This document shows, one piece after another, positions 2,791 through 54,443 of a stretch of 64,000 bases of DNA. Origin of the DNA: Muribaculaceae bacterium Zag1 (GTDB lineage Bacteria; Bacteroidota; Bacteroidia; Bacteroidales; Muribaculaceae); contig NWBJ01000045.1 of the NCBI GenBank assembly GCA_002633115.1, forward strand, positions 23,739-87,738. The letters are read 5' to 3'. Under the pieces are notes generated by a model. It saw only the letters and a program-made list of their open reading frames with translations. It did no database searches and was not told the origin of the DNA. The position numbers and the translations under genes were made by a program. Position 1 is the first letter of the stretch; every line of letters starts with the position of its first letter.

Positions 2791-2854
2791 CAAAAAAAAT
2801 TATTCGTCGTCACGACGAATAATCTTCTACCTTAAATCTAATACCATGAAAAAC
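2791..2854 (-). ncRNA. Candidate small RNA, copy A
   Basis: Read on the minus strand, a TACCTTTG promoter box is followed by GCATCAGTTTTTCATGGTAT, a TTAGATTTAAGGTAGAAG stretch, a 12-bp hairpin (ATTATTCGTCG... ACGACGAATAAT) and a run of eight Ts. That is a complete transcription unit of about 64 nt with no reading frame. A second copy lies on the plus strand at 49912-49976. The two hairpins differ by changes that keep pairing. No minus-strand gene lies close downstream, so it is not a leader. I cannot name an RNA family for it. Confidence 0.6.
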
Positions 2855-2859
2855 TGATG

Positions 2860-2891
2860 CAAAGGTACGACTTTTATGTTATACAACATAA
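2860..2891 (-). promoter_or_regulatory. Promoter and 18-bp palindrome of small RNA copy A
   Basis: On the minus strand TACCTTTG (2860-2867) is the -7 box. Six nt upstream lies the near-perfect palindrome TTATGTTGTATAACATAA (2874-2891), occupying the place of the -33 box. Copy B has the same palindrome at the same 6-nt distance, which suggests an operator or activator site. Confidence 0.55.
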
Positions 2892-29660: not shown

Positions 29661-31223
29661 GTGGTCAACAACAAATACCGTATCCTCTGGGCCGACGATG
29701 AGATCGACCTCCTTAAGCCCCATTTGCTCTTCCTCAGAAACAAGGGCTACATAGTAGACATTGCCAACAATGGCCGCGACGCCCTCGACCTCGTGGCCAT
29801 CGACCCTACCATCGACCTGGCTATCCTCGATGAGAATATGCCCGGCCTCACCGGCTTGGAGACACTGAGCCAAATCAAGCAGGCGCGCCCCGAGCTGCCC
29901 GTGGTGATGATCACCAAGAGCGAGGAGGAAAACATTATGGACCAAGCCGTGGGCAACAAGATAGCCGACTATCTGATCAAGCCGGTCAACCCCAATCAGA
30001 TACTATTGGCTATCAAGAAGATACTGCATGGCGGCCAATTGGTGTCGCAGCAAGCCTCGACCGACTACCGCCAAGAATTTGCCAACATATCCACCCAAAT
30101 CAACAACGCCTCGACCATCGAGGATTGGAGCGAACTCTATTCCAAGCTGGTCTATTGGGAGATGGAGCTCGCCTCGGCCGAGACAAATATGGACGAGATG
30201 CTGGCTCTGCAGCGCGAAGAGGCCAACAGCGAGTTTGGCAAATTCGTCAAGCGTCACTATGAAAAATGGGTATCAGCCGATGGCATCTGCGAGGGCGCCC
30301 CGCTGATGTCCCCCCAGCTGATACCTAAGAAGGTGTTTCCGATGCTCGACGAGGGTGAAAAGGTTTTCTTCATCGTCATCGACAACTTCCGCCTCGACCA
30401 ATGGCGCACAATCAAGCCCCTCCTCGCCGAGAGTTTCACTTTTGACGAGCAGCTCTATTGCGCCATGCTCCCAACTGCCACGCAATACGCCCGCAATGCC
30501 ATTTTCTCGGGCCTGATGCCTCTGCAAATTGAGAAAATGTTCCCCGAACTATGGGTCGATGAGGATTCAGAGGAAGGCAAAAATCTCAACGAATCGCCGC
30601 TGGTAGCCACCCTGTTTGAGCGCTATCGCCGCAAGTGCAGCTTCACATACAACAAGCTCAACGATTCGGTGGCCTGCGAGAAGCTGCTGCGCGAGTATTC
30701 GCGCCTCGAGGATGCCGACTTCAATATAATAGTGGTGAATTTCATCGACATGATGAGCCATGCGCGCACCGAATCGAAGATGATACGCGAACTGGCTGGC
30801 ACCAATGCCGCCTACCGCTCGATCACTGAGTCTTGGTTCCGCCACTCGCCCATCCTCGACATCTTCCGCCGCATAGCCGAGAAGGGCCACAAGATAGTGC
30901 TCACCACCGACCATGGCACCATACGCGTAGAGACACCCGTCAAGGTAGTTGGCGACAAGAACACCAACACCAACCTGCGCTACAAGGTCGGCAAGAATCT
31001 CAACTATCCGCAAAAGCAGGTCTATGAGGTGAAGCGCCCTGAGCAATTCGGGCTGCCATCGCCCAACATCTCATCGACCTACATCTTTGCCACTGGTCGC
31101 GACTTCTTTGCCTACCCCAACAACTACAATTACTACGTGCAATACTACACGGGCACCTTCCAGCACGGCGGCATCTCCCTCGAAGAAATGCTCGTCCCCC
31201 TCGTCGCCCTCACCCCCAAGTAA
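29661..31223 (+). CDS. porX: PorX, response regulator with PglZ domain (T9SS control)
   Basis: A two-part cytoplasmic regulator. Residues 1-125 form a CheY-like receiver with acidic pocket ADDEID, phosphoacceptor LAILDENMPG (Asp about 52) and the switch lysine in YLIKPVN. Residues about 210-515 form a PglZ alkaline-phosphatase-like domain with metal-ligand landmarks IVIDNFRLDQW, LPTATQYARNAIFSG and LTTDHGTIRVETP. PorX with the kinase PorY and a sigma factor controls T9SS genes in Porphyromonas; no porY is in this window. Start is GTG at 29661. Adjacent porW supports the assignment. Confidence 0.93.
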   Translation: MVNNKYRILWADDEIDLLKPHLLFLRNKGYIVDIANNGRDALDLVAIDPTIDLAILDENMPGLTGLETLSQIKQARPELPVVMITKSEEENIMDQAVGNKIADYLIKPVNPNQILLAIKKILHGGQLVSQQASTDYRQEFANISTQINNASTIEDWSELYSKLVYWEMELASAETNMDEMLALQREEANSEFGKFVKRHYEKWVSADGICEGAPLMSPQLIPKKVFPMLDEGEKVFFIVIDNFRLDQWRTIKPLLAESFTFDEQLYCAMLPTATQYARNAIFSGLMPLQIEKMFPELWVDEDSEEGKNLNESPLVATLFERYRRKCSFTYNKLNDSVACEKLLREYSRLEDADFNIIVVNFIDMMSHARTESKMIRELAGTNAAYRSITESWFRHSPILDIFRRIAEKGHKIVLTTDHGTIRVETPVKVVGDKNTNTNLRYKVGKNLNYPQKQVYEVKRPEQFGLPSPNISSTYIFATGRDFFAYPNNYNYYVQYYTGTFQHGGISLEEMLVPLVALTPK

Positions 31224-31384
31224 AGACCATAAGGACATAAAGACCGTAAGGACATAAAGACCATAAGGACAAAAGGGACGTAAGGATTTAATAAAAAAGT
31301 CCCAACCTCCTTTCTGTCCTTACCCTCTTATGTACTTATGCCTCTTATGTTCTTATGGTCTCTTATGTCCTTACGGTCTTTTTT
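31224..31384. repeat. Reiterated inverted repeat, copy 3
   Basis: Three copies of AAGACCATAAGGACATAA-like words begin right after the porX stop; the right arm ends TCTTATGTCCTTACGGTCTTTTTT. The arms are less perfect than in the other copies (GTACTTATGCC, GTTCTTATGG variants). The T-run at the right end could serve as a plus-strand terminator for porX. Confidence 0.78.
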
Positions 31385-31437
31385 GTTAAATTACTTATAA
31401 AAATAGGGGAGGGGTGGTGCAATTGGAGATTAATTCG

Positions 31438-36021: not shown

Positions 36022-36184
36022 AAAAGGAAACGTAAGCACGTAAGATTAACGTAAGCACGTAAGATAAACGTAAGCACTATGAGACTTCCTTATATTATTT
36101 ATATGGATACACTGAGTGTATATCAGTGTGCTTACGTTAATCTTACGTGCTTACGTTAATCTTACGTGCTTACGTTTCCTTTTG
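36022..36184. repeat. Reiterated inverted repeat, copy 4
   Basis: Left arm words GTAAGCACGTAAGATTAAC, right arm GTTAATCTTACGTGCTTAC, matching each other precisely although they differ from copy 1 (GTAAGCACGTAAGAAAAC). The centre is AT-rich with its own small hairpin (ACACTGAGTGTATATCAGTGT). The track start of queG at 36166 (GTG) lies inside the right arm. Confidence 0.8.
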
Positions 36185-41840: not shown

Positions 41841-42012
41841 TAAGTAATAAGTAATAAGTAATAAGTAATAGTGAATAGTGAATAGTGAATAGTGAATAAC
41901 TCATAACTCATAACTCATAACTCATAACTCATAACTCATAACTCATAACTCATAACTCATAACTCATAACTCATAACTCATAACTCATAACTCATAACTC
42001 ATAACTCATAAC
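41841..42012. repeat. Three consecutive heptanucleotide arrays
   Basis: About four copies of TAATAAG, then about four of TAGTGAA, then 16 copies of CTCATAA (41900-42011). Each array is close to perfect. The last unit ends 3 nt before the ATG of the TatD gene, so the whole ribosome-binding region of that gene lies in the array. Confidence 0.9.
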
Positions 42013-42014
42013 TA

Positions 42015-49659: not shown

Positions 49660-49830
49660 AAAGACCGTAAGGACATAAAGACCGTAAGGACATAAGAAAC
49701 ATAAGGACATAAGCAATGTTGTTACATGGATTTTCTGTTTTTTATGTGGCCTTACGTTTCTTATGTCCTTACGTTTCTTATGGCCTTACGTTTCTTATGG
49801 CCTTACGTTTCTTATGTCCTTATGGTCTTA
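49660..49830. repeat. Reiterated inverted repeat, copy 6
   Basis: Left arm AAGACCGTAAGGACATAA twice plus GAAACATAAGGACATAAG. Right arm holds CTTACGTTTCTTATGTCC and CTTACGTTTCTTATGGCC words and ends TTATGGTCTTATTTT. It separates the O-methyltransferase from small RNA copy B. Together with the next two entries it accounts for the gap 49654-50062. Confidence 0.8.
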
Positions 49831-49874
49831 TTTTCCTTAAATAATGCTAAATCGAAAATATTTTTGCCCCAAAA

Positions 49875-49906
49875 TTATGTTATATAACATAAATGTTGTA
49901 ACTTTG
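49875..49906 (+). promoter_or_regulatory. Promoter and 18-bp palindrome of small RNA copy B
   Basis: TTATGTTATATAACATAA (49875-49892) is a perfect palindrome. Six nt later TAACTTTG (49899-49906) is the -7 box. The palindrome covers the place of the missing -33 TTTG. Same layout as copy A. Confidence 0.6.
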
Positions 49907-49911
49907 CATCA

Positions 49912-49976
49912 GTTTTTCATGGTATTAGATTTAAGGTAAGAAGATTAGTCGTCGCGATGACGATTAATTTTTTTTG
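49912..49976 (+). ncRNA. Candidate small RNA, copy B
   Basis: Starts about 6 nt after the -7 box: AGTTTTTCATGGTATTAGAT, TTAAGGTAAGAAG, then hairpin ATTAGTCGTCG - CGA - TGACGATTAAT and a run of seven to eight Ts. About 65 nt. It shares nearly all bases with copy A outside the hairpin; inside, G-T wobbles in B match T-A and G-C pairs in A. The TlpA gene downstream has its own promoter, so the RNA appears to be an independent transcript. Confidence 0.6.
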
Positions 49977-50013
49977 TACCTACTTAATCCATGGGCAAAT
50001 TTTGCAGTCAAAA

Positions 50014-50062: not shown

Positions 50063-50557
50063 ATGATTATGTCTTTGAGAAAATACTTTCTTTTAGCTGT
50101 TTGCGCCCTCGTTGCTATCTGCGCAAACGCCCAGCTGCCCTCAGTGCAGCTCAAGACCCTCGATGGCCAAACCGTCAACGCCTCTGAGCTCTCCAACGAC
50201 GGCAAGCCGTTTGTGATTTCATTCTTCGCCACCTGGTGCAAGCCCTGCAACCGCGAGCTCAAGGCCATCCATGAGCAATACGTCGACTGGCAGGACGAGA
50301 CCGGCATGAAGCTCTACGCCATCTCGATCGATGAGGCCCAGAACGCCAGCAAGGTTAAGCCTCTGGTTGACGCCGAGGGCTGGGAATACGACGTGCTGCT
50401 CGACAGCAATAGCGAACTCACCCGCACCCTGGGCATCCAGTCAATCCCCCACGTGCTCATCATCGACGGCAAAGGGCAGATCGTTGACAGCCGCTCAGGC
50501 TACACCGACGGCTCAGAAGAGCACATCATCGAGAAAATCCGCGAACTGATTAATTAA
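50063..50557 (+). CDS. TlpA-like thiol-disulfide oxidoreductase
   Basis: A 164-aa exported thioredoxin-fold protein. Signal peptide MSLRKYFLLAVCALVAICANA (starting from either ATG 50063 or 50069). The active site is FFATWCKPCNREL (WCxxC, about residues 56-60), and the cis-proline segment is SIPHVLIIDGKG. It would reduce or exchange disulfides in the periplasm. It leads a cluster with a DUF6029 barrel-type protein and an Omp28 lipoprotein that has its own CxxC, suggesting a shared redox step. Confidence 0.92.
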   Translation: MIMSLRKYFLLAVCALVAICANAQLPSVQLKTLDGQTVNASELSNDGKPFVISFFATWCKPCNRELKAIHEQYVDWQDETGMKLYAISIDEAQNASKVKPLVDAEGWEYDVLLDSNSELTRTLGIQSIPHVLIIDGKGQIVDSRSGYTDGSEEHIIEKIRELIN

Positions 50558-54279: not shown

Positions 54280-54296
54280 CTAATTTTCCACATTTT

Positions 54297-54428
54297 GCGG
54301 TAGCGTGCAAATCCTACTCCAAACATTTCGCGGTAGCGTGCAAATCCTACTCCAAACATTTCGCGGTAGCGTGCAGATTATGGTTCAAACATTTCGCGGT
54401 AGCGTGCAAATTCAGCTTAAAACATTTT
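54297..54428. repeat. 33-bp tandem repeat before the DUF4143 remnant
   Basis: Four units of 33 bp start at 54297, 54330, 54363 and 54396, each GCGGTAGCGTGCAAATCCTA-like followed by CTCCAAACATTTC; a fifth start (GTGGTATGG) is degenerate. The period is a multiple of three and the array is in frame with the downstream DUF4143 fragment, reading HFAVACKSYSK-like units. Confidence 0.85.
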
Positions 54429-54443
54429 GTGGTATGGAGTAAG

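Follow-up and report, generated by a model that had tools for sequence, protein, structure and literature searches.

FopS-family small RNA genes in Muribaculaceae bacterium Zag1 carry predicted Cur sites in their promoters

A short unit with the features of a small RNA gene occurs at two places in the stretch of Muribaculaceae bacterium Zag1 DNA analysed here (64,000 nt in full; the window), at 49912-49976 on the plus strand (copy A) and at 2791-2854 on the minus strand (copy B), and raises the question of which RNA it encodes and what controls its production. The two places given in the initial annotation, which had been made from the sequence alone, were borne out. The 25-nt seed TTTTTCATGGTATTAGATTTAAGGT has two exact occurrences in the window, 49913-49937 (+) and 2829-2853 (-), with 0 mismatches between the copies, against a chance expectation of 0.00 and no occurrence in 100 dinucleotide shuffles of the window; no third place was found in the window even when up to 3 mismatches were allowed. 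A TAnnTTTG box had been placed before each copy, and the -7 boxes can be read directly as TAACTTTG at 49899-49906 (+) for copy A and TACCTTTG at 2860-2867 (-) for copy B. In each RNA the fold leaves the 5' stretch unpaired and forms a single terminator hairpin (copy A -16.1 kcal/mol, z -3.5; copy B -16.4 kcal/mol, z -3.7), the hairpin and T-run of copy A spanning 49943-49976 (+). The seed lies in the unpaired stretch; it is antisense to the start-codon-like sequence CTAATACCATGAAAAA, and its reverse complement contains CTAATACCATGAAAAAC, which resembles a start-codon region.

The hairpins of the two copies differ at paired places just as had been described, with a G-U pair in the stem of copy A answered by U-A in copy B, and G-U at the loop-closing position answered by G-C. 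The 107 copies compared, all sharing the spacer GGTA(N)GAAGATT, reduce to 27 distinct hairpins. Of the 12 stem positions, eleven are paired in at least 26 of these 27 and the one closing the loop in 25, the counts being of sequences and not of independent events. The most variable pair, the first of the two differences above, takes the forms U-G, U-A, G-U and A-U. Since pairs are kept across the 27 distinct hairpins, the hairpin is conserved by pairing, as expected for an intrinsic terminator.

The initial annotation could name no family for this unit. A cmscan search against Rfam 15 placed both copies over the gathering score (56) of RF04319, BTncRNA_FopS, each along the full model (1-71), with 60.2 bits for copy A (49910-49977, +) and 57.6 bits for copy B (2790-2856, -). 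On these tests of sequence and structure it is near certain that both units are genes of the known FopS small RNA family. The family was reported in 2025 from Bacteroides thetaiotaomicron, which has 14 paralogues, FopS-01 to FopS-14; there the 5' seed R1' pairs near the start codon and represses susC translation, and the RRM protein RbpB binds the RNA and relieves repression (PMC11697453). The earlier picture, a small RNA standing on its own whose terminator hairpin is accompanied by a conserved unpaired region for a target or protein, agrees with this description, and its predicted length of 65 nt is near that of the homologous RNAs of B. thetaiotaomicron, for which Northern blots give about 65 and 70 nt (PMC11697453). 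The Zag1 copies share with B. thetaiotaomicron FopS the full-length model, an unpaired R1 seed at the 5' end with a single Rho-independent terminator hairpin after it, a canonical sigma-ABfr promoter with its TAnnTTTG box (copies A and B and four further genome copies) and a multicopy arrangement. They differ in having six promoter-bearing copies rather than 14, in the spacer sub-type GGTA(A)GAAGATTA, common in Muribaculaceae, in a genome without an RRM_1 protein, and in promoters bearing the consensus of the regulator Cur, which is absent from the text of the FopS paper. GibS (RF04182) was considered and rejected, the window copies scoring 27.4 bits and the best genome match 43.5 against a cut-off of 115; the start of the R1 seed is common to both families, but GibS is about 145 nt long, carries an additional seed (R2) and is driven by a PM2 promoter (PMC7366714).

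It had also been stated that copy A has no gene downstream on its strand. This was wrong: a thioredoxin-like (thioredoxin/AhpC-TSA-type) ORF at 50063-50557, on the same strand, begins 86 nt beyond the T-run, and with a gene so placed copy A might be its 5' leader or attenuator. We regard this as very improbable. The terminator is strong and no antiterminator is visible in the fold, the ORF is separately preceded by its own TAATTTTG box at about 50038, copy B has no gene close downstream, the thioredoxin-like ORF was not found beside the copies in relatives, and the homologous RNAs are separate transcripts. The terminator and the promoter-like box of the ORF thus still uphold the original view that copy A is not a leader, and we treat both copies as free-standing fopS genes.

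The unit is two-copy in the window, as first described, but not in the genome. Across the Zag1 assembly (4.46 Mb, 137 contigs) there are seven FopS matches at E below 1e-4, five of them over the cut-off, in keeping with the several paralogues typical of the family, and TAnnTTTG is present at six of the seven. The remaining copy (L007, G000:C45:90290-90361) lies 2.6 kb past the end of the window and about 390 nt after a same-strand gene. Its dismissal as a look-alike, on the resemblance of its opposite strand to a start region, was dropped in view of a hairpin typical of FopS; more plausibly it is a copy that lacks a promoter or derives from a 3' UTR, and it may be decayed. A further match of 25 bits (L008) is probably due to chance.

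Homologues occur elsewhere in the order. Matches were found in all 36 congeners searched and in 74 of 344 genomes drawn across Bacteroidales; conservation of FopS had been given as within Bacteroidaceae (PMC11697453). The closest named contig, JAJBUH010000025.1 (Bacteroidales bacterium U_126944), is 92-96% identical over the copy B region, and many named matches of this sub-type are from Muribaculaceae, including Duncaniella muris and Paramuribaculum intestinale. In named MAGs the relatives' copies recur near pgi or rbfA; their orientations differ, so we make no firm claim of orthology. The same Muribaculaceae-type FopS is also present on four contigs titled Clostridiales, Paenibacillus, Staphylococcus and Clostridium (L083, L084, L098 and L162), which are most likely mislabelled metagenome bins.

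No RRM_1 protein over the cut-off was found in the Zag1 genome, in the 36 congeners or in the four other Muribaculaceae genera drawn, all of which have FopS. A Zag1 RRM homologue seen at a loose threshold was dismissed as a partial match of only 13.4 bits. By the same search RRM_1 was found in 229 of the 344 order genomes, many of which are drafts in which a very divergent RRM could escape. Comparison of the two result tables places FopS in 43 of the 229 RRM-positive and 31 of the 115 RRM-negative genomes, proportions that give no sign of a dependence of FopS on RRM_1; 31 of the 74 FopS-positive genomes are without it. An RbpB-type RRM_1 partner is a property associated with FopS in B. thetaiotaomicron and no part of the family definition, and it was not found in Zag1. 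As a small RNA, then, this one is ordinary and already in Rfam; what is new is its membership in a lineage without RRM_1. That FopS is maintained with no need of an RbpB-type RRM protein narrows the possible roles of RbpB.

The seed was also compared with start regions of SusC and other genes. Seed duplex energies, expressed as z-scores against 200 dinucleotide-shuffled seeds, averaged -1.17 for 27 SusC start regions and -0.42 for 130 other starts (Mann-Whitney p 1.3e-4), the SusC starts having been picked by hand and the controls automatically. The top-scoring SusC region, L220, can pair at two sites, ATGAAAAA and TTACCTTAAAT. Predicted pairing with SusC fits the published mechanism; the complementarity is modest and, because the two sets of starts were chosen in these different ways, the result is suggestive only.

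The box, seed, hairpin and T-run had all been recognised in the initial annotation, which had missed the most informative part of the unit, a palindrome upstream of the box. The Cur/BT4338 consensus is wwwTATGTTnTAnAACATAwww (PMC6989115), and its form TATGTTnTAnAACATA is present without mismatch in both fopS promoters, overlying the -33 box. The predicted sites are TATGTTATATAACATA at 49876-49891 for copy A, an exact match, and TATGTTGTATAACATA (minus-strand reading) at 2875-2890 for copy B, likewise matching the consensus. If transcription starts at the G of GTTTTTC, the palindrome has its axis at -28.5, with TATG standing in place of the -33 box. A search for the core consensus with two mismatches allowed gave only two places in the 64-kb window, both exact and both in fopS promoters. 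Over the whole genome eight 18-mer matches at up to 3 mismatches were found, against one for the reversed control, and three of the eight are fopS promoters.

The palindrome is not peculiar to Zag1. When 157 cellular FopS promoters were anchored on TAnnTTTG, dyad symmetry had a single peak 15 nt upstream of it, and 89 of the promoters had ATGYTN4ARCAT starting 22 to 26 nt upstream of the box, against 0.015 expected from mononucleotide shuffles; this sample was gathered partly by an exact search for the sub-type, and the rate of 57% is not an unbiased one. With 20 further regions added, the palindrome was present in 12 of 16 Bacteroidales families sampled, including the FopS promoters of Bacteroides finegoldii and Parabacteroides distasonis; none was found at this position in the sampled copies from Prevotella nigrescens and Phocaeicola massiliensis. 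It is absent from 43% of the sampled promoters, among them three of the six promoter-bearing copies of Zag1, and copies without it often have a canonical -33 TTTG at the same place. PM2 was rejected as the identity of the upstream motif, its elements being at -10 and -30 and tied to GibS, and fopS promoters being called canonical. The words Cur, BT4338, Crp and catabolite do not occur in the text of the FopS paper (PMC11697453), and a Cur site at fopS may be present as an unlinked ChIP peak in published supplementary tables.

Zag1 appears to encode the matching regulator. Six cNMP_binding-type proteins are present in the genome, and one of these (L303) is 59% identical to a Crp/Fnr protein of B. 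finegoldii, the next best of the six being 19% identical; its helix-turn-helix stretch, YLSREDLANLSNMTTSNAIRTLS, is unchanged relative to the B. finegoldii protein. This reference was itself assigned by gene order. Its gene adjoins glutamine synthetase III, and a SAM-dependent methyltransferase gene bearing FopS lies a few genes away; since FopS-14 of B. thetaiotaomicron derives from BT_4331, whose transcript is about 1,400 nt (PMC11697453), locus numbering puts the B. finegoldii protein at approximately the position expected of BT_4338. We infer from this that L303 is the Cur homologue. The gene order around it is not common to B. finegoldii within the 15 kb examined.

Taken alone, Cur control of FopS is likely, and we hold with good confidence that the two units are fopS genes under such control, its sign being left open. 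The well-supported putative operator could place FopS inside the catabolite control of Bacteroidales. Two counter-points are that many of the sampled promoters are without the palindrome and that the bile induction of B. thetaiotaomicron FopS is not explained by Cur. The palindrome might instead be read by another regulator with a similar site, such as a bile-induction factor, with Cur not involved: for bile stress, a regulator yet to be named is postulated in the FopS paper (PMC11697453), and L303 is one of six proteins of its type. The exact agreement of the palindrome with the published Cur consensus and the identical helix-turn-helix stretch of the Zag1 Cur homologue speak against this reading, which we judge improbable.

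With Cur as the regulator, we favour repression, with somewhat less assurance than control as such. A Crp/Fnr site over the -33 position usually means competition with RNA polymerase, and the fopS site is centred near -28, over the -33 box, in contrast with other Zag1 sites that lie farther upstream of such a TAnnTTTG box. Published FopS levels on glucose are about three times those on high-mannose N-glycan, in agreement with repression by a regulator that glucose silences. The opposite sign, under which Cur would activate FopS when sugar runs out and selected transporters would be shut as part of a starvation programme, seems to us unlikely, for the position of the site and the lower level on N-glycan both tell against it. 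Activation is nevertheless conceivable because Cur, known mainly as an activator, activates the small RNA MasB (PMC10994844); a subset of B. thetaiotaomicron small RNAs near BT4338 sites is up under carbon limitation, and the FopS paper frames repression of its targets as acting when substrates are limited (PMC11697453). MasB resembles FopS in being Cur-controlled, which for FopS is a proposal, and differs in being a single, Cur-activated RNA with another target, BT_1675 (PMC10994844).

On the reading we favour, each fopS gene would be transcribed from its own Bacteroidetes -33/-7 promoter and end at the intrinsic terminator, and the unpaired 5' seed would pair with start-codon regions of mRNAs, for example those of SusC-like transporters, and block translation, a step seen in B. 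thetaiotaomicron only and carried to Zag1 by homology. Cur, a Crp/Fnr-type protein, would bind the palindrome overlapping the -33 box and repress FopS when the preferred sugar is absent; with plentiful glucose FopS would be made and glycan transporters kept untranslated, as with CRP and Spot 42 in E. coli. Spot 42 (Spf) is lowered by a Crp-family regulator without the preferred sugar and represses genes for secondary carbon sources; it works with Hfq, and CRP senses cAMP. The likeness to FopS, which is not homologous, would exist only if the repression model holds, and cAMP has not been detected in Bacteroidetes. In the Zag1 lineage the circuit would have to run without an RbpB-type RRM antagonist.

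In the FopS paper the identity of the factor controlling fopS transcription was not settled (PMC11697453). The perfect Cur site in fopS promoters appears to be new, as does the persistence of FopS in a family without an RbpB-type protein, and together they offer a concrete and cheaply testable link between Cur, a master regulator of carbohydrate use, and a small RNA family acting on glycan transporters. A wider reading, to which we give an even chance, is that, throughout Bacteroidales, carbon catabolite control by Cur has FopS as a post-transcriptional arm, with Cur, most likely as a repressor, acting directly on many fopS genes through the -33 site and the Cur-FopS-SusC circuit running without RbpB where this is missing.

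FopS seeds are also present on phage-like contigs (L046, L247, L264 and 28 other IMG/VR stretches). On L046 the seed starts 6 nt past the end of a tRNA-Arg gene, and on L247 and L264 the sequence upstream of the seed resembles a tRNA 3' end; some of the viral copies may lack their own promoter and be released from tRNA transcripts instead. The window itself contains intergenic arrays at 2603-2781, 31221-31387, 36028-36176 and 49660-49839, in which TAAGGACATAAG-type units of 17-19 nt give way to units of the same type in reverse complement, so that long hairpins could form after genes. Both FopS copies adjoin such an array, and the one beside copy B differs in length in a close relative (L115). 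A perfect 7-nt array (ATAACTC x 16.9) and an array of a 33-nt repeat (ACATTTCGCGGTAGCGTGCAAATCC...) lie at 41896-42013 and 54290-54434, respectively.
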